64,000 bases of DNA from IMG/VR virus record IMGVR_UViG_3300021511_000003, positions 62,001 to 126,000 of that record. The stretch is one strand, 5' to 3'. Source of the stretch: a virus. The notes under the pieces are model-generated. The model did no database searches and was not told the DNA's origin. It was given only the letters and a program-made list of their open reading frames with translations. Below, one piece after another: positions 4,620 through 53,110 of the stretch; within the stretch, counting starts at the first letter, position 1, and each line of letters opens with the position of its first letter. The position numbers were made by a program, and so were the translations under genes.

Positions 4620-4633
4620 AAATGTTCTTAAAC
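4620..4633 (-). promoter_or_regulatory. AACA-type phage promoter element (Y RNA / Ro60 operon)
   Basis: Minus strand GTTTAAGAACATTT, matching the repeated TWRGAACA element of this genome. It is the only such element upstream of the Y-like RNAs and Ro60-like gene. Confidence 0.5.
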
Positions 4634-4660
4634 ATAATAAATCATTATTCTTATTCAGAT

Positions 4661-4674
4661 ATTAATATATATAG
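4661..4674. repeat. 14-mer ATTAATATATATAG, copy 1 of 4
   Basis: Exact copy of a 14-base element found four times here, always in intergenic DNA. It is flanked by AATCATT (4640-4646) and AATGATT (4689-4695), an inverted repeat. Strand of action unknown. Confidence 0.5.
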
Positions 4675-4693
4675 TTATTATATTTTTAAATGA

Positions 4694-4954
4694 TTAAGTA
4701 ACATCTACCATAGCAGGTTTTCTTGTATTATCTAAATCAAAAATAATCTTTTTATTTGAAAAATGATTTGCGGTATTCTTGATGATTTGTTTCATACCTT
4801 GTGGCATAAAATTATCAGTATAATATAATTGAAGTCCATCTTTGAAGCTAAATGCAATACCATCATGTGTTTCATTAACTTCAACTAAATCACTTCTTTT
4901 GATTTCAAGATTCATAGTACCTTTTTTAATGACAATCATTGATTCCTCAGTCAT
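4694..4954 (-). CDS. Hypothetical protein, 86 aa
   Basis: ATG 4954 is preferred: AAGGAGAATAAC precedes it and the stop of the 204-aa gene is one base upstream. The first stretch (MTEESMIVIKKGTMNLEIKRSDLVEVNE) looks like small beta strands, and LQLYYTDNFMPQGMKQIIKN follows. No family recognised. Last gene of the RNA polymerase cluster. Confidence 0.7.
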   Translation of the reverse strand: MTEESMIVIKKGTMNLEIKRSDLVEVNETHDGIAFSFKDGLQLYYTDNFMPQGMKQIIKNTANHFSNKKIIFDLDNTRKPAMVDVT

Positions 4955-4955
4955 G

Positions 4956-5570
4956 TTATTCTCCTTCAATTAATTTCAAGTATATTTCATTATTAAGTTC
5001 TTTTGATTTCTTACAAAACCATTCTGTGATTTTATCTTTATTATATGTTCTTAAAAAATTAGTAATTAACCAAGAAAAGTCTTGAGAATTTAACTGTTCT
5101 TCAATTTCAAAAATAATTTCATTTTGATTTTGTTTACAAATCTTTTCAATATGAAATGAATCCAATTCTGGATCTAGATATGACCATATTTCTATAATAA
5201 AATTTTTATGGTCATATTCAACAAACTCCAAAAATTTTAAGATATTTATAATATCAGATTCGCTATTTGTATTAACGATTATAGATGGTTCATAATTATA
5301 CACTTGCTTAACTCTTTTTAATATTGATTCTGCCAGAACCTGTTTTTGTTCTATTGGGTATTTTATCATATCAGGATATACTGATAAATATTCTTCTTTA
5401 AAATCTGATTTACCAATATTACGAATAATTGTTATAAAGAAATATTCTTTCAATGCTTCTTCTTCAACGGGATACCCCAATTCACTTTCCACTTCTGCAT
5501 CATCATAATCTACTTCTGGCTCTTCAATAGAGTTACCAAGAAGTATTTTTAGATCTTCTGATTCAAACAT
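4956..5570 (-). CDS. Hypothetical acidic protein next to rpoB
   Basis: A 204-aa, acidic, largely helical protein. It begins two bases after the beta-subunit stop, so it is surely co-translated with it. The N-terminus is rich in Glu and Asp (EEPEVDYDDAEVESE). No domain recognised. Its position after rpoC and rpoB makes an accessory or promoter-specificity subunit worth testing, but there is no motif evidence. Confidence 0.75.
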   Translation of the reverse strand: MFESEDLKILLGNSIEEPEVDYDDAEVESELGYPVEEEALKEYFFITIIRNIGKSDFKEEYLSVYPDMIKYPIEQKQVLAESILKRVKQVYNYEPSIIVNTNSESDIINILKFLEFVEYDHKNFIIEIWSYLDPELDSFHIEKICKQNQNEIIFEIEEQLNSQDFSWLITNFLRTYNKDKITEWFCKKSKELNNEIYLKLIEGE

Positions 5571-5572
5571 TT

Positions 5573-8500
5573 TTACCTCGTTAACATTAATGATATAAAA
5601 TATGAATTTAATAAATCTTTTGCTGGAGATATTTTTGGTTCTTTATAACCAGCATTGCCATTTTGAATAATCTCTGCCATTATTTTATCTCTTGTTATAT
5701 AATCATCAGATAATGGACCCATAAATTCAGCTAAAACATGTGGACAATTATATGAAATAAAAGAATAAGTATCAAGTTCACCCAGTCTTTGACCTCCATC
5801 ACGTTTTTTTCCACTTGTAGGTTGTGATGTTTTACCTGTTGTTGGACCGGTACCACGTGCATATATTTTCGCTTCGCCAAGATGTTCGAGTTTTGACATA
5901 TACATATAACCAACAGCAACTTCAAAATGGGTTTTAGTATTATATTTAGGCAAGAAAAGTTTATATTTTGTTTTCAAGCCTAATACTTTCAATGATTTTT
6001 TAATCTCAGTATGACCGGGTGCTTTAAATGGTGGTATAATAATTGGATAAAAACCAGTCTTTTTAACCTGGTCAATCATTTTTACATATTGTGTTGTTGT
6101 CAAACTTGATAAATTTCTAACAAGATTTTCTGTTGCTTTTTTATTTGGTGACATATCAAGATTTACAAATACTTGTTTTATGAGTGCAATTGTTTTTGGT
6201 TTTGTCATTGTTGGTAATCGTTTACCTAATTCTCTTGCCATCAATCCACAATACATTTCATATAACTGACCCATATTCATTCTACTTAAAAGACCGAGAG
6301 GATTTAAAATTGTTTCAATGATATCACCGTTAGGAAGTCTTGGCATTAATTCATCGTTTTCAATTAGTGAGATGATTCCCTTATTGCCATACCTATTCGC
6401 TAATTTATCACCAAGTCCAACTCGTAATTCCTGTTCAATTCTAAATCTTACTAATACTCCTTTGATTGTTTCACCTTTGACCGTAAACGATTCTTTTGCT
6501 GGTTTCATTGATTTAAGATTTGTTTTTGTAATCAACTCTTTTAATTGTGGAAATAGTTCTTCATCAACATTAGAATAAACTTCAATATCAACAATTTTTC
6601 CACCAGGACTCTTTTTAATAAATTGTCCAGTAAACATATCAGTTGTTTCATCATCATCGAAACCAATAATATCTTCAATATCACCAAGAGTCTTTCTTAA
6701 TAATGGTTTTCCTTTTTCAATTTCATCACCAATTTCTGCAATATATAAAAGCCTATCATTAGGAGCAATTAATATTTCTTCTTCAATACCATGTAATGAA
6801 GTCAATTTATCCTGTTCTACAACTGATTTACTAATAACTGCACCATCTTCAAAATTATATCCATCATATGGCATAAGAGCGCATAATAACGGTCTTCCAA
6901 GTGAAATTGATCCATTAGACATACATGCACCTTCTGCAATAACATCACCCTGTTTGACGGTTTCACCCACCTTAATCAAAGGGTTAAATACACTTAATGT
7001 ATTTTTTCCAGAACCAGATTTTAAATGAACCGGTGTTATATCAATTATCTTTTTTGTTTTACCACATTGAATTGTTATTAAATCCTTATGAACAGAAGAA
7101 ATTTTACCATTACAAGGAGATTTTTTCACAAAGTTTTTTGATAAAACACCTGTTAATATTGATTCATATCCAGATTGAACAACAGGGGGTTGTGGATTTC
7201 TTAAAGGCAACATTTGTTTTGCCTGATTTGAAAGCATAATAACCCTTGCACCATCTGTATTTTCAAGGAATGGAATCATTGATGTAGTCGTTGAAAGCAT
7301 TCCACTTCCTTCATTATCTGATATATCTTTTGTTGTAAATAAACCTCGTGATGACGATATCAATGCGTCTATGGTTAACTGTTGAACAATTCCAATATTG
7401 TCACTCTCGGATGTATCAAGAGGATCAAGATTTCCAAAATATGAATTATGTAAATTACGAGCATCATTATGAATAGCTCTTTTATCAGGAATACCTCCAA
7501 CCTTTTTACCAGCAGGAGACACTCTTGTCATAGTTGACATTTCTTCAAGAGGATTTGCGTATTCCATATCAACAACTAATTCAGTCATTAAAAAATCACT
7601 TAATACTTTAGTTGGTACTATTGTTAATTTTGCTTCTGTATTGCCTGATAAAACTTGCTCTTTATATACTGTGTAAGCTGCAAGAATTTGTTTTTGTGCT
7701 AAATGGACAAGAACTTCTGAATTTCTAATTCGTTGATTACTAATATCATTTCTTGCAATATAAAACCCATCAACAACTTTTTCTGTCATATATTTCATAA
7801 TCATTTCAAGATCAGTTGGTAATTGTTTATTTAATAATACTTGCTTAGCAACAGGATCAACAATATTTTGAAGATTTGAACTAATAAGAAATGTTGAGTT
7901 TAATCTACCTGATAATTGAATTATTAAATCTTCAAAATATTTATGTGAAGCAAATTCGGCATCACTTTTATATTGTTGTACTTTACCATGAATGAATGAT
8001 TGGCATAGTTGTTTTTGTAAATCTGTTTGGACGTTTTGGAATATAATATATTTTTCGTTGTTAATTTTACATGAGAATTTTTCACTTGGTTTATTATCTG
8101 ACAATATATATTTAATATTATATTTTTTTAAGGTTTCATCAAAACCAAAACTAAACGCAAGCAAAAATATTAATGGCATTTTATAAGACATGAAAGCTTC
8201 AAGATATTTTTCACGTCTTAGCTGTTTAACATATATTCTAAAAACAGAATATGAGCTTTCAAATCTTGATTCACCTGGTGATGGAAATGTAATTGGATTT
8301 TGTACAATTTGATTGATCAAACATTTTTGTTTACCATTCAGTCGAAACACTCCAGTATCAGGATCAATTTTTGGCAACTCCATTTTTATTTCATGTTTGT
8401 TTCCAAATTCATCTGACATATTAATTGTAGCAATTGATAAATCAGATCTCATTACTTCACCCATTCTTTGAGGTTTATCAGCAAGTGTAATCCCTTCAAA

Positions 8501-9649
8501 TTTCATAGGAATCTCTTTTGATTCTAAAACTTTGAATGAGTTTGTTAAATCCTTTTTCAGATTTGTTTTGAAATCAACCTGGCGTTTTTCATATACATGT
8601 TCAGGAGATTTATTATCAACCATTATTTGTGGACTATATACCTGAACTCTTGGGTCAGTACTTAGATTTACAGTTTTAACAGGTTTTAACAGTTCACTTG
8701 AAAAGTTTTTATCTATTGCTTTTAATGCAACTTTCTTTCTTGATTTTGGTATCTGTCTTGCAATAGCGGTTGATTTAGATTTATCGCCACTGACTCCATA
8801 CAATATCGCTGAAGTTGCTATATCTCTCACATCATCGCCTGACGCATCACCAGAGGTTATTTTAATAATATCATCTGGATTTGTTTTTAAATATTTTTCA
8901 ACTGCGCCAGCAACATTTTTTATATTTTTTGGTTCAATATCAGTTGAAATAGCTTTGCTTATAATTCTTGCAGCCTTTTTTGTTTGGTTTTCAACCTCTT
9001 CTTCTGCTGGAATACTTTTAATAGTTCTTATATAGTGGGTCAATCTTGCGAATTTATATTCATTATCTTTCACGAGTAAACGATATTTTGATGAACTAGC
9101 ATCTAAATAATTTATTATCATATGATCAAATAAAAAGTTTCCATTTTTCATATCTCGTATAACAGGAAATATTTTTTTGTCAATAAATGGATTGATTTCT
9201 TTTGAAATATCAACAGAATAAAATAATATCTTTTGATAATTATCTGGAAAAGCATCTGACATTTGCTTCAAAATATTTGTAATAAAAAATCCAGCTCTTT
9301 GTCTATACGTAGTAGGCTTATAAACTGTATCAATAGCATTTGTATATTGTGATAAATCTACAATAACATTCTTCCCTTGCGGTATATTTTGTTGCATTGT
9401 ATAAGGAATTAATCCAAGAGCTTTATACATTTTTACAAATTGTGCTGTCATTCTTGTACGTGGAACCTGTGTAACTGGACTTGCAACAATACGAAAATCA
9501 ACTCTTTTTAAATTCAATTTTAGGTAATCTGTAATGAAATTAGAATTTTCAGAAAAATATATAATAAGATATGGTTCTTTTGGATTTTGCGGAAACCTCA
9601 CACCATCCGTTACATGCGTATATTGTTTCCATGATTTAAATTGAATCAC
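5573..9649 (-). CDS. rpoB: Phage DNA-directed RNA polymerase beta subunit homologue
   Basis: A 1358-aa protein with GTG start after AGAGGGG. Conserved beta blocks appear in order: GVFRLNGKQKCLINQIVQNP (near residue 430), DNIGIVQQL, the NTP-site block MPYDGYNFEDGAVIS with LTSLHGIEEE, the catalytic-core block GDKLANRYGNKGIIS...MPRLPNGD...LNPLGLLSRMNMGQ, and near the C-terminus VGYMYMSKLEHLGEAKIYARGTGP and GGQRLGELDTYS. Length is close to the 1342 aa of the E. coli protein and the gene is not split, unlike phiKZ-type phages. The first 370 residues look divergent. It lies downstream of rpoC, the reverse of the bacterial order. Confidence 0.95.
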   Translation of the reverse strand: MIQFKSWKQYTHVTDGVRFPQNPKEPYLIIYFSENSNFITDYLKLNLKRVDFRIVASPVTQVPRTRMTAQFVKMYKALGLIPYTMQQNIPQGKNVIVDLSQYTNAIDTVYKPTTYRQRAGFFITNILKQMSDAFPDNYQKILFYSVDISKEINPFIDKKIFPVIRDMKNGNFLFDHMIINYLDASSSKYRLLVKDNEYKFARLTHYIRTIKSIPAEEEVENQTKKAARIISKAISTDIEPKNIKNVAGAVEKYLKTNPDDIIKITSGDASGDDVRDIATSAILYGVSGDKSKSTAIARQIPKSRKKVALKAIDKNFSSELLKPVKTVNLSTDPRVQVYSPQIMVDNKSPEHVYEKRQVDFKTNLKKDLTNSFKVLESKEIPMKFEGITLADKPQRMGEVMRSDLSIATINMSDEFGNKHEIKMELPKIDPDTGVFRLNGKQKCLINQIVQNPITFPSPGESRFESSYSVFRIYVKQLRREKYLEAFMSYKMPLIFLLAFSFGFDETLKKYNIKYILSDNKPSEKFSCKINNEKYIIFQNVQTDLQKQLCQSFIHGKVQQYKSDAEFASHKYFEDLIIQLSGRLNSTFLISSNLQNIVDPVAKQVLLNKQLPTDLEMIMKYMTEKVVDGFYIARNDISNQRIRNSEVLVHLAQKQILAAYTVYKEQVLSGNTEAKLTIVPTKVLSDFLMTELVVDMEYANPLEEMSTMTRVSPAGKKVGGIPDKRAIHNDARNLHNSYFGNLDPLDTSESDNIGIVQQLTIDALISSSRGLFTTKDISDNEGSGMLSTTTSMIPFLENTDGARVIMLSNQAKQMLPLRNPQPPVVQSGYESILTGVLSKNFVKKSPCNGKISSVHKDLITIQCGKTKKIIDITPVHLKSGSGKNTLSVFNPLIKVGETVKQGDVIAEGACMSNGSISLGRPLLCALMPYDGYNFEDGAVISKSVVEQDKLTSLHGIEEEILIAPNDRLLYIAEIGDEIEKGKPLLRKTLGDIEDIIGFDDDETTDMFTGQFIKKSPGGKIVDIEVYSNVDEELFPQLKELITKTNLKSMKPAKESFTVKGETIKGVLVRFRIEQELRVGLGDKLANRYGNKGIISLIENDELMPRLPNGDIIETILNPLGLLSRMNMGQLYEMYCGLMARELGKRLPTMTKPKTIALIKQVFVNLDMSPNKKATENLVRNLSSLTTTQYVKMIDQVKKTGFYPIIIPPFKAPGHTEIKKSLKVLGLKTKYKLFLPKYNTKTHFEVAVGYMYMSKLEHLGEAKIYARGTGPTTGKTSQPTSGKKRDGGQRLGELDTYSFISYNCPHVLAEFMGPLSDDYITRDKIMAEIIQNGNAGYKEPKISPAKDLLNSYFISLMLTR

Positions 9650-9820
9650 TAGTTTCCCCTCTGCAAATTATATTTGTTAGTTTTCCTGTTGAACATTCAT
9701 TTTGATGACCTTTTTTAATATATTCGGGACAATTACTTGAATGTTTACTATAACACCATTTACCATTTTTAAATTGATAATTAGCTTCTTGACTACAACC
9801 ATAATTGCATAGTTGTATTA
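9636..9820 (-). pseudogene. Internally deleted HNH-family remnant between rpoC and rpoB
   Basis: An open frame that joins the N-terminal zinc finger of the local HNH family (LCNYGCSQEANYQFKNGKW) directly to its C-terminal tail (ECSTGKLTNIIC), with the whole nuclease domain missing. There is no ATG: the frame begins ATA ATA CAA at the rpoC stop. It ends inside the first codons of rpoB. I call it a remnant. Non-AUG initiation is possible but unsupported. Confidence 0.7.
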
Positions 9821-12800
9821 TTCCTTTTTTTCTTCCACAAGTGTACCAGTAAGGACTTTTTCAAGAACAGATGCTTCCCCAGTTTCATCAGTAATCAATC
9901 CAGTTTTTATAGCTTCGTTGATATTTTCGAAGGCCAGTCCCTGAATAAAACTTGTCTTGAATACAATCTGTTTAATATTAATCATAACAGGATCCCATTT
10001 ACGTCCAAGTCTTGCAGGAATACTCTGATTGGCTCTATCTCTTAATGATTGTGATAATAAAATTTCAATATGAACACTATCCATATCTCTAAGATCACCA
10101 TATATTTTAAATAATTTTAAATATAAATGATTAGCATCTTTATAAATTTCACGCCCTCCAATTAGTCTTTCAACATATTGGATTTGTTTTTTCATTGCTT
10201 CTGTTTCTGTTGGTACTTCTAATATTGTACTATGTTTCTTATAATATAATTTGATTGTTTCTTTATTTTCTTCGATTTCATATATTTGAAATTTAATTGG
10301 ATAATCAAGAATGATATTATAGATTGAATCTGAAAATTCAACTATAGCTACAGAAGCTCTTATAGACAAAATAGTTTTTGTATCATTAAATGTCAAATCT
10401 CCTGATACTGGGTAATCTCCTTTTGAAATTGTAACTGTACAATCATCGTTACATGCCAATACATTATCATTTTGTATTAAAGTCTTTCTTACAATCTTTT
10501 CATCTACAAGAGCATCATTCTGAATAATATCGTCAATGATATTTCTTGAAACAACACTTACTGCACCGCCTGTGTGGAACGTTTTCATAATAGTCTGTGT
10601 TCCAGCTTCACCAATAAGCTGTGCTGCCATTACACCTGCATATGGACTTCGATGACGTTCTAATAGTTTTCCATAACAAGTATGACATAGTTTTGAAGAT
10701 TCACAAAATACGGGTGTTCGTAAATGAATTTGATCTCCAATCTTATAATTTACAGGATTAAATAATTGAGGTTTACCATTTTCAAGAACATAACGACCAT
10801 TCAGTCTAGTTGATAGTTTTTTAGTTAACCTTAGATCAAGAGTCCTTTTTGTTTTACAATCTTGTAGATTTGGATCAATCTCAACACTGTTTAAAACATA
10901 TGCTAATTTTCTTGCCATGTATCCAGTATCTGCAGTATTTAAAACTCTATCAATAATACCACTTCTTGCACCAGACGCTGCTGAAAAATATTGACTATTT
11001 GTTAAACCATCCGAAAACGAACCATCTATTGGAGGTAATACTTTTCCTGTTGGATCAGATACTAAACCTTTAGCAACAAAAATTTGTGTTGGTTGTCCCC
11101 AACCTTTACCTCCACCTGATTCAATTAAATCATAAACACCACTTCCTTTCAAATGTTCTATTAACATTACTTGCATTTTTTTCAATAATACATCGGCTTC
11201 CTCTGTTGATGAATTTTTCAATTGTTTTTTAAGCTCTAAAATTTCAGGTGGTAATTGAATATCATCTAATGTAATACTTGGTGAAATGATTGTTGAAAAT
11301 TTAAATGAAATATCTTTTAATTTTGAAAAAGATTTAATTGCTTGTTCCTGACCATATTTTTTAAGAATTGGAGAAATCATTCCATTAACAACTTTCTTTG
11401 TCACTATATCATTATAAAATGGAGTATCCAATGGAAATACACTATTAAAAAGAGCTTTTCCCATTGTTGTAGTTTTCTTTCTATATACTACAGGAATATA
11501 TGGATCAACAGCATTATCTAAATCTTTTTGTGTTACTGCAATAGGAGGAGTTGTTCTTTTTATATCTTTTGTGATTGTAAAAAGTCCAACACACATTTCT
11601 TTTGAAAGTTCAAAATTTACAGATTTATCATTATCACCACTTTCAGATCTCATCATTTTAGTTTTTGCTTCAAGTTGTGCTTCATTCGTAATTGGATGAA
11701 AAATTGCCATAGTATCACCATCAAAATCAGCATTGAATCCACCAACTTGTAATGTACATAATTGCACTGTATTCCCTTTAATTAAAATTGGATTAAATGC
11801 TCTAATAGATTCAGCATGTAAACAAGGGTCACGTTTTGCCAATACAACACGATTCATCATAGCAACTTCTGTTGCTTCAAATACAATATCATATAGTTCT
11901 TTTGGTATTTTATCTCCACTTTTAATAGACTTGAAAACTTGTTTAACACCATCAACAGAAAGTTCAAATTTTGTAAACTTTTTAACTTCATCTGATAATT
12001 TCTTTTTATCAACCCGACTTGAAAATAAACGATGTAATATAAATGGTTCAAATAAACTAACAGCCATCCGTAATGGTATCCCAATTTCATTTACTTTTAA
12101 ATCTGGACCTGGTGTAATAACGGCACGACCAGAAAAATCTGTACGTTTACCAAGCATTTGTGATCGAATTAAACCACGTTTTTTCTGAATTAATTTTCTA
12201 ATAAAATTGTCATGATTAATAATTGCTTTTTGTAATTCAAAATTCAACAAATCAAATAATGGTCCACTTTTTGCAGCACTCCTTATCTGATGTGCTCGGC
12301 GTATAGTTGTGATATAATAATCATTTAAAGGATCAATAATCCACATTCCATTTTCATCTTGATATGCATCTCGTTGAATTGGTGGTATTACTGGTAAAAC
12401 ATCTAAAAATAACGTATTGTTTTCATATGATTCTTTTATCTTTTTAATGAATTTATCTCGAGTATCAGACCCCCCTCTAAATTTGATTTTTGGAAGTAAC
12501 TTCATAAATGATGAAATTCCAGTAACACCTCTTGAATCTTTTTGAAGAAGCCCTTTTGAATCAACTGAAAAGGTTTCTTGCGCAGATATAAATAATTCAA
12601 TTTGTCTATCAAGTTGAATAAGAAGTATATATGCAGATGGGTGAATAACATAAGCATTTAAATTAATATATGAAAATGTTTTCTTTCGTTCAGTAGATTC
12701 TTCGGATCCAAAAATTATTTCAGAAAAAAGACCATCAGGATGAAACTCCCCAGGTTTGGAAAATAATTCCGTTGTTGTTACAGGGGTCAATCCTTTTTTG

Positions 12801-12838
12801 AAATTATTTATATTCAGAAAATTAATCATTATACGCAT
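9818..12838 (-). CDS. rpoC: Phage DNA-directed RNA polymerase beta-prime subunit homologue
   Basis: A 1006-aa protein. Landmarks in order: KKRGLIRSQMLGKRTDFSGRAV with NEIGIPLRMAVSLFEPFI (residues 220-270), the catalytic Mg motif NADFDGD with three Asp, the bridge-helix block ASGARSGIIDRVLNTADTGY, a zinc site CESSKLCHTCYG, and the trigger-loop block GVMAAQLIGEAGTQTIMKTF. It is shorter than E. coli beta-prime (1407 aa), seeming to lack the N-terminal zinc domain and lineage insertions. It is intact, not split. The start may be residue 1 or 4 (MRIMINFL); the mini ORF upstream overlaps this start. Confidence 0.95.
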   Translation of the reverse strand: MRIMINFLNINNFKKGLTPVTTTELFSKPGEFHPDGLFSEIIFGSEESTERKKTFSYINLNAYVIHPSAYILLIQLDRQIELFISAQETFSVDSKGLLQKDSRGVTGISSFMKLLPKIKFRGGSDTRDKFIKKIKESYENNTLFLDVLPVIPPIQRDAYQDENGMWIIDPLNDYYITTIRRAHQIRSAAKSGPLFDLLNFELQKAIINHDNFIRKLIQKKRGLIRSQMLGKRTDFSGRAVITPGPDLKVNEIGIPLRMAVSLFEPFILHRLFSSRVDKKKLSDEVKKFTKFELSVDGVKQVFKSIKSGDKIPKELYDIVFEATEVAMMNRVVLAKRDPCLHAESIRAFNPILIKGNTVQLCTLQVGGFNADFDGDTMAIFHPITNEAQLEAKTKMMRSESGDNDKSVNFELSKEMCVGLFTITKDIKRTTPPIAVTQKDLDNAVDPYIPVVYRKKTTTMGKALFNSVFPLDTPFYNDIVTKKVVNGMISPILKKYGQEQAIKSFSKLKDISFKFSTIISPSITLDDIQLPPEILELKKQLKNSSTEEADVLLKKMQVMLIEHLKGSGVYDLIESGGGKGWGQPTQIFVAKGLVSDPTGKVLPPIDGSFSDGLTNSQYFSAASGARSGIIDRVLNTADTGYMARKLAYVLNSVEIDPNLQDCKTKRTLDLRLTKKLSTRLNGRYVLENGKPQLFNPVNYKIGDQIHLRTPVFCESSKLCHTCYGKLLERHRSPYAGVMAAQLIGEAGTQTIMKTFHTGGAVSVVSRNIIDDIIQNDALVDEKIVRKTLIQNDNVLACNDDCTVTISKGDYPVSGDLTFNDTKTILSIRASVAIVEFSDSIYNIILDYPIKFQIYEIEENKETIKLYYKKHSTILEVPTETEAMKKQIQYVERLIGGREIYKDANHLYLKLFKIYGDLRDMDSVHIEILLSQSLRDRANQSIPARLGRKWDPVMINIKQIVFKTSFIQGLAFENINEAIKTGLITDETGEASVLEKVLTGTLVEEKKE

Positions 12839-12981
12839 ATCCTTTGTGCCAAATTACCTGTAGAACATTCATCTTTATGACCATATTTATAGTGACATCT
12901 TTCACATACAGACCATGCTAAATCTGGATCTAACTTAAAAAAATGGGTTGCTTCTTTGCCACATCCATCACAAATAATCAT
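12829..12981 (-). CDS. 50-aa mini ORF derived from the HNH family
   Basis: It begins MIICDGCGKEATHFF (the family's N-terminal Cys-x2-Cys knuckle) and jumps to KLDPDLAWSVCERCHYKYGH, the family's last zinc knuckle and tail. About 250 residues in between, including the catalytic HH, are gone. The start overlaps the preceding stop as TAATG and the stop overlaps the rpoC start, so a ribosome could pass from gene to gene through it. Two CxxC pairs could still bind zinc. It may be a harmless remnant or a small coupled zinc protein. Confidence 0.65.
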   Translation of the reverse strand: MIICDGCGKEATHFFKLDPDLAWSVCERCHYKYGHKDECSTGNLAQRICV

Positions 12982-13448
12982 TATTTATCATCAATTGCAT
13001 TTGTTTTATTAATATCAAGATAAGATTTAATTTTTTTGAACATCCTCGTTACTTGTGCTTTTTTTGCAGCTGTGGATGCCGGTTTGATCACAGTTTTTGA
13101 AAGGACATTATGTCTATGATTTAATTGATTCAAAATACCTTGAAGTGTATTAGTATCAAATTTTCCTTTTGGATCATTCATTAATCTTTGAACAAGTTTT
13201 AATGCAACTGCAATTACTTTTTTATCCTCCATACCCATACGATTACAGATGGGTATAAGATATGGAGAAGTGTTTCTACCAATTGGTAACAACTTTAGAA
13301 AACATTTTGGCTTATCACCGTATAATCTATCTCTCAAATCCTTCTTTAGTAAATACGATAAACTATCTTCGGGATTAATTAAATCATTTGCCTTTCTAAT
13401 AAGTTCCGAAAGATGTTTTATTTCTTCATTTAATTGGTCGCTCATCAT
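12981..13448 (-). CDS. Hypothetical protein, 155 aa, first gene of RNA polymerase operon
   Basis: Helical protein with GGAGG before the ATGATG start. Contains PICNRMGMEDKKVIAVALKLVQRLM in the middle and a basic C-terminal part (STAAKKAQVTRMFKKIKSYL). No family recognised. A promoter element lies 38 bases upstream and a terminator hairpin beyond it, so this gene opens the rpoC-rpoB transcription unit. Confidence 0.75.
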   Translation of the reverse strand: MMSDQLNEEIKHLSELIRKANDLINPEDSLSYLLKKDLRDRLYGDKPKCFLKLLPIGRNTSPYLIPICNRMGMEDKKVIAVALKLVQRLMNDPKGKFDTNTLQGILNQLNHRHNVLSKTVIKPASTAAKKAQVTRMFKKIKSYLDINKTNAIDDK

Positions 13449-13485: not shown

Positions 13486-13498
13486 ATTTGTTCTTAAA
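13486..13498 (-). promoter_or_regulatory. AACA-type phage promoter element (RNA polymerase operon)
   Basis: Minus strand TTTAAGAACAAAT with AA seven and eight bases after AACA. It precedes the operon that encodes the RNA polymerase itself, so the enzyme may control its own genes. Confidence 0.55.
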
Positions 13499-13953: not shown

Positions 13954-15432
13954 TTAAAAATCAGCATTCATCAATTTTGTCATTTCATCAATTTCTTTTT
14001 TCATACCTCCTGAAAAGTATGCTGTAAAGAATTTGATCATACCATTTTCGATTTTTGAAAGAGGAATACCACCTAATCGTTTTCCTGTTAAAATATCACA
14101 AAAATCAACTCGAGAAACTCTACCGATAAAATGACATAATAATGTATGAGGTAATATCTTTGTAGTAAATCCAAAGAAATTTTGTGTTTCTTGTTGTGTT
14201 TTCAAATATTCATGCACAGCTTTAATTTTATATGTTGTACTCATTGATGGGCTTTTCATTGGGTAAAAGTTTAATAAAGTAAATAAGTCTTTATAGTCTG
14301 TACCGAATACTTGTCTAAATAAAACTTGGATATAAACTGCAATCACCGCTGTATGCTCAGGGGAAAGTGTTCTGAAATGATGGAACGGTATATGAGTCAT
14401 TTGTGATAATATTGGAAATACTAATGTTTCTGCCAATGGAGAAATAAAATTAATTTCTGATGCTCGTTCATGGAATGATATAATGAATTCGTCATCATCA
14501 ACTTTTTCAGTTGACATAGTTGATTGCCTTTGAAGTAATTCATATATTTTTTCATAAGCAATGCTTTTTAATCTTCCAAGAGTATCATTATAACTATAAG
14601 TCTTTAAGTTATCTGTATTAATACCTTGAATATCTTCTGTTGAAATACTATCATCATAAACAATAGAACCTTTATAAACTGATCGTAAAAACCATTTAAC
14701 TGATTCATCAATAACTCCAACAAAATAAGTAATTGGATTTTTATCTATTTCACAAAGAATCAGAATATTATTCATAATGAAATTGAAAATTTCAATAACA
14801 TGAACTCCAATATCTTTTCCTTGCACATTCTTGATATATTCCCACATAAATCTATCTGTTAGATTATATCTGAATGTTTTTGTTTTGATAACATCATAAA
14901 TCTTTCTAATAATATCTGTTTCAACAATATCTGAAGCAAATTGGTTATAAACTTCTCGATGTAGTTGTGCTCCCAATTTCAATTTTTCATTGTTTGAAAT
15001 CACTGAATAAATTTTAAGATAGCTTGATAGTCTAATAATTTGTTCAATTTCATCTGGTTTAAAAAGTATGGAGTTTTTCTTGACCTTTGTCATATCAACA
15101 AACTGACTATAATCAAAAGTTAAAGAATCCATATAACTATCAACATAATTTTTAATTTGAGGAATACTATCGACTACAGCTTTTGATCGCAGATTTTCAT
15201 CATGGCAATCAGTTAAAAAATTAATAAACCAGTTGCTGAATCCTTCTACGTTATGTTCAGCAACTCTCTCGATGAATTTGGTCACAATAAAATATTTATT
15301 AGTGACTGAAGAAGGTGAGAGAAAGAGTTTTATTGGTTCAACATCATCATCTACTACAACTGACCATACTTTTGGTCCATTCTGCTCAATTCGTAACAAA
15401 ATAAATTGACCTCCTTTGATGTTGTGAGACAT
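13954..15432 (-). CDS. Hypothetical protein, 492 aa
   Basis: A helical protein rich in Ile, Phe and Asp, with no signal peptide and no motif I recognise. It contains the block PLAETLVFPILSQMTHIPFHHFRTLSPEH near residue 350. The TAA stop overlaps the next start. The gene is preceded by an inverted repeat carrying the 14-mer element. Could be a virion or host-interaction protein; unknown. Confidence 0.75.
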   Translation of the reverse strand: MSHNIKGGQFILLRIEQNGPKVWSVVVDDDVEPIKLFLSPSSVTNKYFIVTKFIERVAEHNVEGFSNWFINFLTDCHDENLRSKAVVDSIPQIKNYVDSYMDSLTFDYSQFVDMTKVKKNSILFKPDEIEQIIRLSSYLKIYSVISNNEKLKLGAQLHREVYNQFASDIVETDIIRKIYDVIKTKTFRYNLTDRFMWEYIKNVQGKDIGVHVIEIFNFIMNNILILCEIDKNPITYFVGVIDESVKWFLRSVYKGSIVYDDSISTEDIQGINTDNLKTYSYNDTLGRLKSIAYEKIYELLQRQSTMSTEKVDDDEFIISFHERASEINFISPLAETLVFPILSQMTHIPFHHFRTLSPEHTAVIAVYIQVLFRQVFGTDYKDLFTLLNFYPMKSPSMSTTYKIKAVHEYLKTQQETQNFFGFTTKILPHTLLCHFIGRVSRVDFCDILTGKRLGGIPLSKIENGMIKFFTAYFSGGMKKEIDEMTKLMNADF

Positions 15433-15511
15433 TCATTGATAAAAAATACCAATGAATACCTCATGGACCTTTATGAGTTGTGGTTATAAAGATCCAATTC
15501 AAAAAATAACG

Positions 15512-15570
15512 AAACACTTATATCTTTCATTAGTTATTAATATATATAGACATGGAATATATAAGTGTTT
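15512..15570. repeat. 12-bp inverted repeat enclosing 14-mer copy 2
   Basis: AAACACTTATAT (15512-15523) and ATATAAGTGTTT (15559-15570) are perfect complements. Between them lies ATTAATATATATAG (15536-15549), identical to the other three copies. Located between the heptose kinase gene and the 492-aa gene. Confidence 0.65.
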
Positions 15571-15590
15571 AAGTTCTCATATTCAAAGAT

Positions 15591-16502
15591 TTATATTTTA
15601 CACACCAAATCTTTTAAGACTTGCTCAAATATTTCTTTTGGTACTGTTGTTGTGCCTGATTGTGTTACTACATAAGCAGCGCATTTATTTGCAAGAATGG
15701 CTGCTTCGTGTATAGAATAATTCATTGATAAACATAAACCCATAACAGCCACAACCGTATCACCGGCACCTGAAACATTGTAAACTTCAACGGGTTCTGA
15801 CATAATTGAATATTCTTTATTATTCAACTTATTATATAAAATCATTCCATGTTTGCCTTTTGTTTCAAGAATAAATTTTACATTTTTTAATGAATATTTA
15901 GATGATAGTTTCATGATTTTCCATTCTTTTTCATTGGGTGTAATCATGTAAGCATCATTATATAAAAAGCCATTAATTGGTTTTGGATCAACAATGATTT
16001 TTGTATTCAGAGTTTTAAGAAATTCCATTAGTTCTTTTGTAATCATTCCTTTTGCATAATCCGAAACTATAATAACATCATATACTTTTCTACAATCTTT
16101 AAGGAAAACTTCAATTGCTCTTTTTGAATCAATTTTCGAGATTGTTTCTCTATCAACTCTTAACATTTGAACTTTACGGTCATCAGCAATAATTCTTTCT
16201 TTTACAATTGTTTGTTTTGAACCGTATGAACATAAATTCTTTGCGCCTATATTATCCAATTCATTAATTATCAACCCCCCATTGATATCATTCGAAATTG
16301 AGGACATACAATCAACTTGTGCTCCGAGTTCTCTAAGATTTCTACAAACATGGCCACAACCTCCCAAAGTATAATATTCTTCTTTAACGTGAACAACAGG
16401 TACAGGAGCTTCTGGGCATATTCTTTCAACTTTACCTATAATATATTTGTCAAGCATTATATCGCCAACAACTAAAACTTTCACATGACCAGTTTCTTTC
16501 AT
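15591..16502 (-). CDS. hldA: D-glycero-beta-D-manno-heptose-7-phosphate kinase-like (PfkB family)
   Basis: A 303-aa kinase-only homologue of the HldE/RfaE N-terminal domain. The opening VLVVGDIMLDKYIIGKVERICPEAP and the sugar-site block LGGCGHVCRNLRELGA match that family. Near the C-terminus NVSGAGDTVVA is the PfkB signature 2 with the catalytic Asp. The cytidylyltransferase domain is absent. ATG 16502 has AAGGCGG before it. The leader carries a c-di-GMP riboswitch and a terminator. The enzyme would supply heptose precursors for LPS or glycan decoration. Other PfkB sugar kinases are a less likely reading. Confidence 0.85.
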   Translation of the reverse strand: MKETGHVKVLVVGDIMLDKYIIGKVERICPEAPVPVVHVKEEYYTLGGCGHVCRNLRELGAQVDCMSSISNDINGGLIINELDNIGAKNLCSYGSKQTIVKERIIADDRKVQMLRVDRETISKIDSKRAIEVFLKDCRKVYDVIIVSDYAKGMITKELMEFLKTLNTKIIVDPKPINGFLYNDAYMITPNEKEWKIMKLSSKYSLKNVKFILETKGKHGMILYNKLNNKEYSIMSEPVEVYNVSGAGDTVVAVMGLCLSMNYSIHEAAILANKCAAYVVTQSGTTTVPKEIFEQVLKDLVCKI

Positions 16503-16531
16503 ATACACCGCCTTTTTAAAATTTTCGTGGC

Positions 16532-16562: not shown

Positions 16563-16646
16563 GTGTGAGAGAGGTAATTCCGCTATCCCATAAGGACCGG
16601 TGATTTTGCGTCCTAACCTTGCGGTTAGTTTGCCTTTTTCTCTCTT
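16563..16646 (-). promoter_or_regulatory. Cyclic-di-GMP-I (GEMM-I) riboswitch aptamer
   Basis: The minus strand carries the class signature in order: GGCAAAC, a stem capped by a GCAA tetraloop (CTAACC/GGTTAG), GGACGCAAA, ACCGGTCCT, GGGATAGCGG and AATTACC, with a GAGAG/CTCTC closing stem. The base just before CAAAC is G, the residue that in Vc2 recognises c-di-GMP; cGAMP-selective variants have A, as I recall. The aptamer starts about 6 bases after the predicted start site of a phage-type promoter, and a terminator follows. It should gate the heptose kinase gene. Confidence 0.88.
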
Positions 16647-16653: not shown

Positions 16654-16669
16654 CATTATGTTCCAATTG
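16654..16669 (-). promoter_or_regulatory. AACA-type phage promoter element (riboswitch leader)
   Basis: Minus strand CAATTGGAACATAATG, then AA at the expected start site (about 16652). It drives the riboswitch RNA separately from the exported-protein genes upstream. Confidence 0.55.
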
Positions 16670-18907: not shown

Positions 18908-19450
18908 TTATTTCTTGTTGTTTATCCCCCTCCTTTCATACTGAAATGGACCAATTATGAAAACTTCAATTCCACCTGATTGAACTGAACCATAAAACAT
19001 GATATTTTCATTATCCTGTTTTATCGGTAAATCAATCGTATAATGCCTATATATTAAATCACTAATTGCCAATCCATTATTTATAAAATCTTCTTTATGG
19101 CTTTTCATTTTTGATTTAATACTATAGTTGATTGAATATTCAACCAAGTTTGGATTGTAGATTTCCATAGTTACCATCACTTTAACAATGTCTTTATTTA
19201 TTACTTGAAGTTTATCCATTGATAAAGTATGTGGGATAAAAATACTTGTCCCGTCTTTGTCAATAACAGTTGAAAAACCAGTGAACCAAAATGTAACCAT
19301 CATATTTGTTTCACCAGATACATCTTTAAGAACGTAGTTCGGATTTGCTATTGGTCTTCCACTATTTAAACGAATGTTATAAACAGGGGCAGCACATGAT
19401 ACCAAAAATATAAGTAACATGACTGGTAACATAAATTTAATTTTTTTCAT
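18908..19450 (-). CDS. Lipoprotein, 180 aa
   Basis: Begins MKKIKFMLPVMLLIFLVSC, a type II signal peptide with lipobox LVSC. The mature part is mostly beta-strand like, with TFWFTGFSTVIDKDGTSIFIPH and EIYNPNLVEYSINYS. No family recognised. First gene of the exported-protein cassette, preceded by the 14-mer element at 19532. Confidence 0.78.
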   Translation of the reverse strand: MKKIKFMLPVMLLIFLVSCAAPVYNIRLNSGRPIANPNYVLKDVSGETNMMVTFWFTGFSTVIDKDGTSIFIPHTLSMDKLQVINKDIVKVMVTMEIYNPNLVEYSINYSIKSKMKSHKEDFINNGLAISDLIYRHYTIDLPIKQDNENIMFYGSVQSGGIEVFIIGPFQYERRGINNKK

Positions 19451-19531: not shown

Positions 19532-19545
19532 ATTAATATATATAG
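19532..19545. repeat. 14-mer ATTAATATATATAG, copy 3 of 4
   Basis: Exact copy with the extended context TTATTAGTTATTAATATAT shared with copy 2. Flanking AT-rich arms are imperfectly complementary. It lies 82 bases before the start of the lipoprotein gene, so a leader or promoter role for the exported cassette is possible. Confidence 0.5.
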
Positions 19546-32004: not shown

Positions 32005-32007
32005 TAA

Positions 32008-37632: not shown

Positions 37633-37655
37633 CTATATTAGATGTCTATAGTTAG

Positions 37656-38301: not shown

Positions 38302-38302
38302 C

Positions 38303-43192: not shown

Positions 43193-44080
43193 TTAACAAA
43201 CTTTATGGGCTAATTTTCCAGTAGAACATTCATCTCTATGACCGTACTTATAATGACACTTTTTACATACAGACCATGCTAAATCAGGATCAAGTGCAAA
43301 AAATGGTTCAAGTTTTTGTGGTCTTTCATGATGAACATGTTCTGCTTTTTTACCACAATATTGACATTTATAATTATCTCTTTTTAAAACAAATTCTCTG
43401 AAAGTTTGATATTCTGCTTGTGTATATAGTTTGTTGTCTATTTTAAATGGATCGCTATATAAATTAAATAAAGGGCACTCATTTTTACACTTATCAGAAC
43501 AATAAAAATAACTACCACCAGACCCAAATTCATTTTCTAATGCCCTAACTCGTTCATATAATTGGGTGTATGAAGGAGTAAACCAACCACCTTGTTCTTT
43601 TGAATTTGGGCAATTATGGTTTTTACATCTAACTTTGAACTCGTTGTTTTTTATTTTAATATCTTCTACCGTACAAAAAAAATTATGATTTTTTATCCAA
43701 TCAATCTTTATTTGAATTGATTTTTTATAGTTATCAACACCATATTTTTTAATACAAGTATTTTTAAAATTATTCTTAAATTTTTCAACTTTACTTACAT
43801 TATCGACACCATATCTTTCAATACATGTTTTTTTTATTTTTTCTTTATTTTCTTTTGTTTTATTTGGGTGATCAACACCATATTTTTTAATACATGTTTG
43901 TTTCGTTTTTTCTTTTATTTTTGATACTTTATTGGGATTATCAACACCATATTTTTTAATACAAGTGTTTTTAAAATTATTTTTAACAGCTTCACATTGA
44001 AAGTGATTCTTACTACAACACCATTTACCATTTTTAAATTGATGATTTGCTTCTTGACCACAACCATATTCACATATCAT
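43193..44080 (-). CDS. HNH homing endonuclease with CIKKYGVDN repeats
   Basis: 295 aa. Zinc knuckle CEYGCGQEANHQFKNGKWCC, then five repeats around TCIKKYGVDNPNK (a phage DNA-binding repeat), a middle Cys domain and the family nuclease YKCQYCGKKAEHVHHERPQK. The repeat type is different from the NUMOD3 repeats in the 337-aa member while both ends match, so the DNA-recognition middle has been swapped. Confidence 0.87.
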   Translation of the reverse strand: MICEYGCGQEANHQFKNGKWCCSKNHFQCEAVKNNFKNTCIKKYGVDNPNKVSKIKEKTKQTCIKKYGVDHPNKTKENKEKIKKTCIERYGVDNVSKVEKFKNNFKNTCIKKYGVDNYKKSIQIKIDWIKNHNFFCTVEDIKIKNNEFKVRCKNHNCPNSKEQGGWFTPSYTQLYERVRALENEFGSGGSYFYCSDKCKNECPLFNLYSDPFKIDNKLYTQAEYQTFREFVLKRDNYKCQYCGKKAEHVHHERPQKLEPFFALDPDLAWSVCKKCHYKYGHRDECSTGKLAHKVC

Positions 44081-44103: not shown

Positions 44104-44116
44104 TTTTGTTCTAAAA
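44104..44116 (-). promoter_or_regulatory. AACA-type phage promoter element (HNH/connector operon)
   Basis: Minus strand TTTTAGAACAAAA, then AA at the predicted start. It is 24 bases before the HNH gene, so that gene probably inserted between promoter and the connector gene. Confidence 0.55.
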
Positions 44117-49029: not shown

Positions 49030-49425
49030 TTAACATTTATATGCGTTATCACTATTCAATAACATCTGAGTATAAAATTGATTTTGTATTAATTCATTAG
49101 ATATTTTTTCAATTTTAGTTTTCTCTATAAGTTTAAATGCTTTATCTCCTAATATACATTCATTATTTGCATTAAAAATAAATGATTCCATTACATCTAC
49201 ATCCCTGTTAATTTCACTAAGTATTAATGCTAGATTAGCTGCTTTATCTGGTTTAATAGTAGCCTGAAATGAAACAGCTAAGTTTTCTTCTTTCGTACTT
49301 GCAAATAAGATCATTTCTTCAACATAAAAAATATGTTCATTACATCTTTCTTTTGATGGGTAATCAGTAAAAATTTTCAAGCCATATTCATTCATTTTAT
49401 ATTTAATCTTTTCAACAAATGTCAT
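49030..49425 (-). CDS. Hypothetical protein, 131 aa
   Basis: ATG 49425 is chosen because GAGGAG precedes it and a promoter element lies upstream; the in-frame GTG or earlier start at 49485 would lie over that promoter. Product begins MTFVEKIKYKMNEYGLK. Candidate clamp-loader partner by position only. Confidence 0.7.
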   Translation of the reverse strand: MTFVEKIKYKMNEYGLKIFTDYPSKERCNEHIFYVEEMILFASTKEENLAVSFQATIKPDKAANLALILSEINRDVDVMESFIFNANNECILGDKAFKLIEKTKIEKISNELIQNQFYTQMLLNSDNAYKC

Positions 49426-49453: not shown

Positions 49454-49468
49454 ATTATGTTCCTAATA
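49454..49468 (-). promoter_or_regulatory. AACA-type phage promoter element (clamp loader operon)
   Basis: Minus strand TATTAGGAACATAAT, then TA at the predicted start, 29 bases before the 131-aa gene. Confidence 0.55.
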
Positions 49469-49710: not shown

Positions 49711-50967
49711 CTACCCATAATAGTTATATATAATAAATAATTTTTTACTTGATCTTGTTATTGCAGTATAAAGCCATCGAGCATAATATTCGTCATCCCA
49801 ATAATTAGATCTTTGTTCAAATACAATTACTTTTTCCCATTCAGATCCTTGTGATTTATGCACACTCATGGTGTAACCATAATCGAAAAAGTCAACTCGG
49901 GAAGCTCCTTTTGCTGCTGCATATTTTTGCTGTTGTTTTAAATGTTTGGTACCATCATACATGGTATATGTTACCTCACCAAAACATTTAGGAGACACCA
50001 TACATTCAATAGGATCAGGGTCTCCTAAATCAATTGTCATTCGATATAAACCATAATTTTCAGGCATTAACCATTGAATTGTACCTATCTGCCCATTCAT
50101 AATTTTTATATCATGATTATTTACAAGGCATACAATTCGCTCACCCGGATATGGAATTTTATTTTTTGAATATTTAAGTTTCCTTCGTATCTTATTGTTT
50201 AGATTACATCTTGTTGTATTAAACCCACATAAAGTAATCAAATTATCATCAAATATAACTTTATTTTCCCAAATTTCTTTACAGTGTTTATTATTCCAGT
50301 TCAGTCTGAATACATCTTTGGAGAAAAACTTGTTGTTTTGTGGTATATACCCTTCTTCTCTAACTATTTTAGATAATGCGATTATAGGTGAATTCATTGC
50401 CTGTCTATGAATTTCAGTTAATTGAAAATCTGTATGTGTCAATAAATTGAATTGATCGCCAACAGGCGGTAATTGCCCATGATCACCAACTCCTATGATT
50501 GGTTTGTTAAATTTATTCAGATCGTCCCATATTTGTTTTGAAACCATTGATGCTTCATCAATTATAATAATATCAATATAAACTTCATCTTTATTTTTTA
50601 ATTCCCATCCTATTATAACATGTGTTTTTAAGTCGGGATCATATCTAGTTTTTGCTTTATATATCAACCCATGAATAGTTCCTATATAATCTTTTGGATA
50701 TATAACATTAGCATTTTCTAATTTTCTCTGTAAAACAGATGATGCTTTACCAGTAAAGGTTACAAAAGAAACATTAACACATGGAAAATATTTATTTATT
50801 TCTTTTCTTAATTCACATAATAAAGTTGTTTTACCAGTACCTGCAAATCCACCAACTGTTAAAACAAATGGATTACAGAAAAATGAAGTCTTACGACTCA
50901 TCCCATTGGATTCCAATTGACTTATTATAGCATCAACTATCTTTTGTTGTTCCAGTGTTAATTCCAA
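49711..50967 (-). CDS. dda: Dda-like SF1 DNA helicase
   Basis: 418 aa, TTG start after AAGGAGAT. Walker A GGFAGTGKTTLL, motif II IIIDEASM, motif III GVGDHGQLPPVGD, motif V/VI SVHKSQGSEWEKV and YTAITRSSKKL. Matches RecD-type superfamily 1B helicases such as T4 Dda, used in origin melting and recombination. The next ATG would remove the start of the helicase domain. Confidence 0.85.
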   Translation of the reverse strand: MELTLEQQKIVDAIISQLESNGMSRKTSFFCNPFVLTVGGFAGTGKTTLLCELRKEINKYFPCVNVSFVTFTGKASSVLQRKLENANVIYPKDYIGTIHGLIYKAKTRYDPDLKTHVIIGWELKNKDEVYIDIIIIDEASMVSKQIWDDLNKFNKPIIGVGDHGQLPPVGDQFNLLTHTDFQLTEIHRQAMNSPIIALSKIVREEGYIPQNNKFFSKDVFRLNWNNKHCKEIWENKVIFDDNLITLCGFNTTRCNLNNKIRRKLKYSKNKIPYPGERIVCLVNNHDIKIMNGQIGTIQWLMPENYGLYRMTIDLGDPDPIECMVSPKCFGEVTYTMYDGTKHLKQQQKYAAAKGASRVDFFDYGYTMSVHKSQGSEWEKVIVFEQRSNYWDDEYYARWLYTAITRSSKKLFIIYNYYG

Positions 50968-51166: not shown

Positions 51167-51179
51167 GTTTGTTCCAAAA
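51167..51179 (-). promoter_or_regulatory. AACA-type phage promoter element (helicase operon)
   Basis: Minus strand TTTTGGAACAAAC, then AA at the predicted start. Left arm of a divergent pair with 51237-51251. Confidence 0.55.
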
Positions 51180-51192: not shown

Positions 51193-51206
51193 ATTAATAT
51201 ATATAG
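51193..51206. repeat. 14-mer ATTAATATATATAG, copy 4 of 4
   Basis: Exact copy at the centre of the divergent promoter region. The flanks 51167-51192 and 51216-51251 are imperfect inverted repeats (GTTTGTTCC against GGAACAAAC at the ends). Confidence 0.55.
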
Positions 51207-51216
51207 ATGGAACATA
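51201..51216 (+). promoter_or_regulatory. Possible additional AACA-type element
   Basis: Plus strand ATATAGATGGAACATA, then TA eight bases after AACA. Weaker context than the element at 51237. Confidence 0.3.
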
Positions 51217-51236: not shown

Positions 51237-51251
51237 ACTTTAGGAACAAAC
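51237..51251 (+). promoter_or_regulatory. AACA-type phage promoter element (rightward operon)
   Basis: Plus strand ACTTTAGGAACAAAC, 38 bases before the first rightward gene. Same element as on the minus strand, now pointing right, which supports a directional promoter. Confidence 0.55.
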
Positions 51252-51828: not shown

Positions 51829-52024
51829 TAGTAGAACTTTATGTTTTGATGATGTTGTATTTTTTAATTATAATGGTTCGATACCAATATATAAGTTACT
51901 TGCTTTAAAGTATCATGAAACAATTTACAAAGAAGATTATGTAGTAGATCATGAAAAACAAGAAAGAGATCTTATGAATAATTTAATATCAGAGGATTTT
52001 GGAGGTGTTTTTTACCATGAATAA
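51821..52024 (+). CDS. Hypothetical protein, 67 aa
   Basis: MVNSRTLCFDDVVFFNYNG..., acidic, overlapping the next gene by 8 bases. No family recognised. Confidence 0.5.
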   Translation: MVNSRTLCFDDVVFFNYNGSIPIYKLLALKYHETIYKEDYVVDHEKQERDLMNNLISEDFGGVFYHE

Positions 52025-52727
52025 AGTAGAAAATTATATCAATGCTTGTACGTTGAATAATATTCGTAAAAATTCTAATGTTCTTGGTATTATAACTAAT
52101 ACAGAAATAGAAGAAAAGGGAAGAGGTATCGGAACTGTAGTATTATTTGTGAATCTTAAGAAAAAATCATATTTTAAATATGGAGATATTATCACATATA
52201 ATAAAAGTAAATTAAAATGGAGTTCAAAACCAGATAAAGATGGATGTAGATTATATTTGATAAATCCATATTGGTGTTCAGCATATAATCATGATATAAA
52301 AATTCCATGTGATGTTGATGTTTTAAAAAGTTATGAAGAAGGCGGAAATAGAAAATATCACATAGAAACTGAAAAAGTATATATGTCTAAAAAACAATAT
52401 ATCAAAAGATATAATATTGAATTATTTGGAGGTGTAAAATATAGAGTTATTTTAGCATGCCAAAATATGTGGGAACGTATTAATATACACAAAGATTATT
52501 ACAGAGCTTTGAATGAAACATCTAAACATTATATGATTGAACATGAACAATTAAAAAGTTATTATGGTAAATATAAAAATGCTGCTGGTGTTGCTGTAAG
52601 GAAATGGGAAAAATTCAAAGTTGAATATTATACACAAAATCAAAATGAGCAAGCTTTACAATTTAAATTGGATGAGTTAAAAAGTAAAAGTGAATCAAAT
52701 ATTATTAATTTTAAAGCTAATATGTGA
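52017..52727 (+). CDS. Hypothetical protein, 236 aa
   Basis: ATG 52017 follows GGAGGTG. The middle (YFKYGDIITYNKSKLKW) is beta-rich and the last 80 residues are helical and charged. No family recognised. Ends the first rightward operon before a repeat-containing gap. Confidence 0.68.
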   Translation: MNKVENYINACTLNNIRKNSNVLGIITNTEIEEKGRGIGTVVLFVNLKKKSYFKYGDIITYNKSKLKWSSKPDKDGCRLYLINPYWCSAYNHDIKIPCDVDVLKSYEEGGNRKYHIETEKVYMSKKQYIKRYNIELFGGVKYRVILACQNMWERINIHKDYYRALNETSKHYMIEHEQLKSYYGKYKNAAGVAVRKWEKFKVEYYTQNQNEQALQFKLDELKSKSESNIINFKANM

Positions 52728-52834
52728 TGATTTCAGTTGGAATCCAAGGTAGTTGGGACGAGCCAGCTTATAATATATGTAATATATATTATAGCTAATG
52801 ATCTAAGTATATAATAGATGAAATAATATAAAGA

Positions 52835-53023
52835 GTAATAAAAGGAATTAGATTAAAAAATAATTTCAAAAAAAGTATAAGTACAAAAACAACTATTAAA
52901 CTAAAGATATAAATTCAAAAATACAAATAGTAATAAAAGGAATTAGATTAAAAAATAATTTCAAAAAAAGTATAAGTACAAAAACAACTATTAAACTAAA
53001 GATATAAATTCAAAAATACAAAT
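52835..53023 (+). repeat. Tandem duplication, two copies of about 94 bp
   Basis: Copies 52835-52928 and 52929-53023 are identical except for one base in an A run (A5 versus A6). Strongly purine-rich on this strand. No ORF or promoter in it. From 52728 to 52834 I see only AT-rich DNA with a short GGGACGAGCC patch. Confidence 0.9.
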
Positions 53024-53024
53024 A

Positions 53025-53095
53025 GAACCTGACGGTTCAAGTACTTCTCATAAGGCCCTACTCGGGCAGAGCAACCCTTCGGGTTGATCAAGGGC
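53025..53095 (+). other. GC-rich hairpin cluster before the 643-aa gene
   Basis: Three hairpins: GAACC-TGAC-GGTTC (53025-53038), GCCC-TACTC-GGGC (53055-53067) and AACCC-TTCG-GGTT (53073-53085, UUCG tetraloop). GCCCT can also pair with AGGGC at 53091-53095, so two folds compete. It lies just before a promoter element. No known RNA family or U-run recognised. Confidence 0.55.
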
Positions 53096-53096
53096 G

Positions 53097-53110
53097 CTAA
53101 TGGAACAAAT
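53097..53110 (+). promoter_or_regulatory. AACA-type phage promoter element (643-aa gene)
   Basis: Plus strand CTAATGGAACAAAT, then TA at the predicted start, 34 bases before the start codon. Confidence 0.5.

Follow-up and report, generated by a model that had tools for sequence, protein, structure and literature searches.

Promoters and RNA polymerases of related phages

The late promoters of phage phiKZ carry TATG at the start. In the Bacillus phage AR9 (PBS1 group), the mapped late promoters were found to read AACA-(6N)-TA/G, where the A or G is the transcription start (PMC5312081; reviewed in PMC7598289). The non-virion enzymes of AR9 and phiKZ contain gp226 and gp68, respectively, as a subunit (PMC9209446; PMC7618050). 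V206 of AR9 gp226 blocks the methyl group of thymine at position −10, and a V206G exchange leads to acceptance of T (PMC9209446). In the transcriptome of the Yersinia phage phiR1-37 no new conserved sequence was found (PMC4848604). Phage β and β′ of a multi-subunit RNA polymerase were also described for Caudovirales with an unsplit enzyme (Weinheimer and Aylward, 2020; PMC7481178), which were compared here by description; no mention of phiKZ, promoters or a second pair was found in that text.

AR9 served as positive control. In its intergenic DNA, AACA-N6-TR was identified 94 times in sense and 15 times in antisense orientation, and the N6-T spacing forms a sharp peak. At that spacing, AACA is the top tetramer in AR9, phiR1-37 and the Listeria phage LPJP1, and the fourth in MarsHill. 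AACA-N6-TR is enriched before the genes of both phiR1-37 (77 versus 17 expected from the antisense strand) and LPJP1 (56 versus 16), which also encode gp226 homologues. From these counts, the late promoters of phiR1-37 are predicted to read AACA-N6-TAG.

Distribution of the TWRGAACA motif

The analyzed window comprises 64,000 nucleotides, bases 62,001-126,000 of a 223,015-base virus record (G000), the remaining 159 kb of which were fetched as well. In the record 299 genes were called and every motif occurrence was classed by its context. Positions refer to the window unless the record is named. Many genes of this uncultured giant phage are preceded by the signal RGAACA with a purine 8 bases on.

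Counted over the whole window irrespective of context, the 21 exact TWRGAACA matches are near expectation and not significant (shuffle mean 16.4; 21 reached in 14 of 100 whole-window shuffles), and this way of counting was rejected. In the intergenic DNA of the record, 35 matches point toward the next gene (1.79/kb) and 3 the opposite way (0.18/kb), compared to 28 sense (0.14/kb) and 17 antisense (0.08/kb) matches within genes. The motif is not equally common inside genes, and it points with the genes, as the preliminary description had stated.

In the sense intergenic DNA of the window 11 matches were found, whereas dinucleotide shuffling gave a mean of 0.65 and a maximum of 3 (300 shuffles). 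For the rest of the genome the corresponding values are 24 matches, a mean of 2.08 and a maximum of 8, and for the whole genome 35 matches and a mean of 2.6. The extended form RGAACA-WA-N4-WRA occurs at 30 sites (0.51 expected). A matrix trained on the 11 window sites and applied to the DNA outside the training set (score of 12 or more) matched 24 intergenic-sense, 10 genic-sense, 1 genic-antisense and no intergenic-antisense sites. Since the context counts, the shuffles and the matrix, which also works in the 159 kb outside the window, agree, the earlier observation is regarded as confirmed. Counting against a promoter function, about 10 genic sites fit the extended pattern as well as the intergenic sites do.

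Of the 35 intergenic-sense sites, some two thirds have a start codon 20-91 bases downstream. Among the sites with longer distances, the one at 165148 of the record stands directly before a tRNA. One element lies 11 bases before tRNA-Ile and another 15 bases before a riboswitch. The match at 172290 of the record falls within a tRNA and was discarded as a false positive.

The record also encodes a tmRNA (tag ADDYYTDFAKAA) and about 24 tRNAs, one of them with a CTA anticodon (L018 10688-19758 and L019 143-10028). A general suppressor recoding by the latter is unlikely; TAG ends 27 of the 299 called genes.

Shape of the element and predicted transcription start

The bases following AACA were analyzed in 50 sites from the record and two relatives, with genic or antisense occurrences of the same TWRGAACA core as controls. 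The consensus was W-A-A-W-A-W-W-R-A, resulting in the full element TWRGAACA-WAAWAW-W-R(+1)-A. In 98% of the sites a purine occupies the eighth position after AACA (54% in the controls; p=3e-7), and in 88% the ninth position is an A (44% in the controls). The information content sits in RGAACA, and the 3′ half is AT-rich, sometimes reading TATAAAT. Neither a conserved position upstream of −16 nor a conserved −35 region was found with the matrix and the 50 sites.

Measured by the mapped AR9 spacing, the predicted start coincides with that of AR9, so that TWRGAACA most likely spans −15 to −8 and the purine 8 bases after AACA is the start. With the AACA core, the purine start 8 bases downstream and the lack of a conserved −35 region, the element shares the geometry of the AR9 late promoters, which supports the promoter class suggested earlier. 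It differs from AR9 in the TWRG extension, which is not enriched there and is also absent from phiR1-37 and LPJP1, and in the −1 position. Here A (72%) prevails over T (26%) and the downstream half is A-rich, in contrast to the strict T at −1 in AR9. Judged from their sequence, the elements are probably promoters of the AR9 kind of phage polymerase in a variant form.

AACA sites in the window

The 11 exact intergenic matches of the window lie between 4623 and 51241. Near 53110, where the range given in the preliminary description ends, there is just a weak match (TAATGGAACA).

On the minus strand, a TAAGAACA element with a weak downstream half (4623-4630, predicted +1 at 4615) precedes small tRNA-like (Y-type) RNAs, for which Rfam matches were obtained at 4205-4275 and 4466-4524. 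Adjoining these two RNAs, a protein with a vWA-like motif is encoded at 2464-4020, which matched nothing in Pfam or NCBIfam and nothing usable in the PDB; the arrangement is suggestive of a Ro/Y RNA pair. A further TAAGAACA at 5046-5053 (minus strand) lies within the gene 4956-5570. It fits the extended consensus and is a possible internal promoter for 4694-4954.

The predicted TAAGAACA promoter at 13489-13496 (minus strand, +1 at 13481) precedes an operon of the genes 12981-13448, rpoC and rpoB, and is kept before the orthologue in the relative G001. At 16659-16666 (minus strand), a predicted TTGGAACA promoter, kept in the relatives G001 and G003, is located before a c-di-GMP-I-GGC riboswitch aptamer (16569-16643, minus strand). 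The predicted +1 (16651) lies 8 bases before the aptamer. This riboswitch in a phage directly follows an AACA promoter and lies upstream of a PfkB-family kinase gene (15591-16508).

Predicted TTAGAACA promoters on the minus strand were identified at 31157-31164 before gene 30818-31105 (full consensus), at 33685-33692 before the genes 33216-33662 and 32008-33201, the latter UvsX-like by its match to AR9 UvsX, at 37622-37629 before gene 36743-37594, and at 44107-44114 before gene 43193-44080 (full consensus). The first three are kept in G003. A second element before gene 36743-37594, TAAGAACA at 37657-37664 (minus strand), has a weaker downstream match. A predicted TAGGAACA promoter is located at 49458-49465 (minus strand) before gene 49030-49425, and a predicted TTGGAACA promoter at 51170-51177 (minus strand) precedes the helicase gene 49711-50967. 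On the plus strand, an exact intergenic TAGGAACA match (51241-51248) is the predicted promoter of the rightward operon starting at 51290, and GGAACA with a full downstream half (51209-51214) is a near match. Repeated homing-endonuclease-like coding remnants (C..GCG.EA..K..NG.WCC) were also observed at 55712-56719 and 63484-64000 and in a number of stretches between genes.

Early-type element

A second element, CTATATATATTAAT-N3-TGAA, resembles the early promoters of AR9, of which the annotated ones, aligned here, read AAATATATATTATAATAnTGA. In both phages this AT-rich early class is similar in sequence and has TGA at the start. The genome contains about 15 copies, most of which point leftward and precede genes. 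Of the intergenic copies, four fall within the window, all on the minus strand: CTATATATATTAAT-ATC-TGAAT at 4661-4674, upstream of the AACA site 4623; a CTATATATATTAAT element at 15536-15549 before the gene of the gp226-like protein described below; one at 19532-19545 before gene 18908-19450; and one at 51193-51206 before the helicase gene. The first and the last are in tandem with AACA sites. An annotated early promoter is also found before the gp226 gene of AR9. The copy before the gp226-like gene is flanked by an inverted repeat AACACTT...AAGTGTT (15490-15575), which is likewise present in G001 (L026 around 18150).

Two unsplit RNA polymerase pairs

The window encodes an unsplit RpoB-like protein of 1358 aa with an N-terminal extension of about 480 aa (5573-9649, minus strand) and an unsplit RpoC-like protein of 1003 aa (9818-12829, minus strand), referred to as set A. 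A second unsplit RpoB/RpoC pair of 1000 and 903 aa (set B) is located outside the window at 31,964-38,348 of the record (minus strand). In each of the five clade genomes that provide enough sequence, two complete unsplit β/β′ pairs were found. Two multisubunit polymerases are also known from phiKZ, but there, as in AR9, phiR1-37 and LPJP1, the subunits are split, and the sequence relation to phiKZ is very distant.

In the tree of the β′ N-terminal half, set A groups with the virion and set B with the non-virion enzymes (support 97/97), and the same grouping was obtained for β (82/84). The RpoB of set A matches the long, N-terminally extended virion-type β of LPJP1, phiR1-37 and phiKZ; the β of set B matches the halves of the AR9 non-virion β. 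Since the trees of the β′ C-terminal half and of rooted full-length β′ leave the A/B grouping unsettled, the assignment of set A as virion-type and set B as non-virion-type is only probable. In the AU test, a grouping of set B with the virion RpoB was not rejected (p=0.105). No conserved match to the promoter-contact residues of AR9 β-N was found in set B, and directly before the set B genes no recognisable promoter was found.

A gp226-like protein, the likely specificity subunit

Upstream of set A, a protein of 481 aa is encoded at 13954-15399 (minus strand; a longer ORF to 15432 is possible). It matches AR9 gp226 over the σ2-like region in a BLASTP comparison. A gp226-family profile of seven homologues, searched against the 299 proteins, detected it with an E-value of 7.3e-9 (next protein 0.0048) and a score of 29 bits, compared to 12 bits for the best of 2000 shuffled sequences. 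With the same profile, the orthologue ranks first in nine of nine clade genomes, although the E-value in two of them is only 0.009-0.019. Together, these searches relate the protein to the gp226 family over the σ2-like and finger region. The reverse search with a clade profile was not significant for AR9 gp226 (E-value 0.32). Since BLAST against phage records gave nothing useful and phmmer against the PDB gave no match, profiles or structures are needed to recognise the relation.

An AlphaFold model calculated with 28 homologues reached a pLDDT of 82, with a low-confidence linker at residues 242-262; a model from 3 sequences (pLDDT 47) was not used for structure search. The only significant PDB matches in Foldseek were AR9 gp226 chains (E-values 3.8e-5 and 4.6e-4). 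In VIA-align, the model matched 7s01_A with a Z-score of 20.7 over 409 residues and 7um0_A with 20.0, followed by phiKZ gp68 (8.8), similar to the model's C-terminal domain, and bacterial σA (6.8). The two-domain fold with a σ2-like N-terminal domain and a linker is present in the model, and the large overall rmsd probably reflects a different angle between the two domains. By profile and predicted structure, the protein is a distant homologue of AR9's promoter-specificity subunit, gp226.

The proposed reader of the AACA sites

It is almost certain that one of the two RNA polymerases encoded by the phage reads the signal, via the gp226-like subunit. The TWRGAACA elements are accordingly proposed as promoters of a phage-encoded multisubunit RNA polymerase, and set B together with the gp226-like subunit is probably their reader. 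The preliminary description had named the RpoB/RpoC-like enzyme of the window or a relative. The window pair groups with the virion polymerases, which speaks against the first half of that statement, whereas the second half holds better, with set B as the likelier relative.

Computation showed the elements, with their geometry and their conservation, as well as both polymerase pairs and the gp226 homology; the pairing of subunit and enzyme, the order of events, reading on the template strand and the use of thymine-type DNA are what we infer. On entry, the virion-type polymerase (set A) would transcribe the early genes from the CTATATATATTAAT elements. As an early-type promoter precedes the gp226-like gene, the specificity subunit would be among these early products. 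The non-virion enzyme, composed of set B and the gp226-like subunit, would then transcribe the genes with AACA elements and thus supply further virion polymerase, whose operon lies behind an AACA promoter. Some units have both early-type and AACA elements; continuously expressed genes of AR9 likewise carry both promoter types.

Alternatively, set A might read the sites, using the gp226-like subunit encoded nearby, and the second pair would have another role. In four genomes (G000, G001, G004 and G008), the gp226-like gene precedes set A at a distance of no more than about 3 kb; the set A operon itself lies behind an AACA promoter, and a swapped RpoB orthology was not rejected by the AU test. 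In G006 and G007, however, the two are no longer adjacent, and an AACA promoter stands between the gp226-like gene and set A. Moreover, set A groups with the virion enzymes, whereas gp226 and gp68 belong to non-virion ones (PMC9209446; PMC7618050). We consider this assignment unlikely.

Were the host RNA polymerase directed to the sites by a sigma factor of host or phage origin, the AT-rich 3′ half, where this reads TATAAAT, would be its −10-like element. Such a reading is rather improbable, given that the information resides in RGAACA with no conserved −35 region, that the geometry is that of a known phage polymerase whose specificity subunit is carried by the phage, and that the element is constant over clade genomes of 28-36% GC. 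Slighter still is the probability that the element acts in the RNA, as a processing or translation signal in leaders. Its usual position 20-91 bases before start codons would fit such a role, but it also stands immediately before a tRNA, the aptamer and non-coding RNAs, and a fixed purine 8 bases downstream suits a start site. Chance or base composition, compatible with the whole-window count, is refuted by the held-out and shuffle tests, the context-specific counts and the conservation, and can be dismissed.

Thymine or uracil in the template

AR9-type recognition takes place in the template strand, with uracil at −10 and −11. In the V206 column, a valine is present in seven of seven AR9-like homologues, including those of phiR1-37 and LPJP1, whereas the 28 clade sequences have Y (20), F (7) or A (1). 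Other AR9 contact residues are retained (Y210, Y246 and Y263, corresponding to Y188, Y225 and Y242). Two gene products set the phage further apart from AR9: a protein of the thymidylate-synthase family, and a family B DNA polymerase carrying a family-4-like uracil-DNA glycosylase (UDG) domain at its N terminus (180653-183877 of the record; L019 14653-17877). Based on the F/Y at V206, the thymidylate-synthase-family protein and the UDG-fused polymerase, the template is likely to contain thymine or another C5-substituted base, not uracil. A residue bulkier than valine alone leaves the fitting of T unexplained. For this reason, and with the β-N pocket residues not recognisable in set B, the recognition pocket must differ from that of AR9. 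A queuine tRNA-ribosyltransferase-like protein (187035-188441 of the record; L020 1035-2441), possibly a DNA deazaguanine modification enzyme, was also noted.

Occurrence in related genomes

Contig G001 (101,627 bases), which runs collinear to the left part of the record up to about 79 kb, contains both motifs, as does G003 (81,767 bases). The elements are kept before five of six orthologous units in G001 and five of seven in G003, with diverged flanking DNA.

A search with the second RpoC yielded 174 viral contigs, 80 of which were kept (39-78% identity). Around set B, the loci of these 80 contigs showed few promoters and a weak enrichment, so that whole genomes are needed for motif counts. 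In six further clade genomes, unbiased 7-mer counts placed words containing GAACA in the leading group upstream of genes (GGGAACA leading in G005), and 81-100% of their sites again have the purine at +8. In G006 (L233-L242), the upstream word GTGAACC was observed 23 times (0.7 expected). The gp226-like protein is encoded in 17 of 22 large contigs. The same signal and subunit recur in a large group of giant phages that is apparently undescribed.

A broader reading, which we offer tentatively, concerns the uncultured jumbo phages behind the 174 contigs. Both of their polymerases would be unsplit, probably the ancestral state, and would combine AR9-type recognition with thymine-type DNA. An aromatic residue would replace the uracil-gating valine, and the extension of AACA to TWRGAACA may regain the specificity lost with uracil.

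The promoter class, its likely specificity subunit and the two unsplit polymerases form one tractable set, with which the action of gp226-type enzymes on ordinary DNA becomes a directly testable question. According to a 2026 review, it is unknown whether a duplication or two acquisitions gave rise to the virion and the non-virion polymerase (PMC13282480). Genomes in which both polymerases are unsplit are the material needed for this question.
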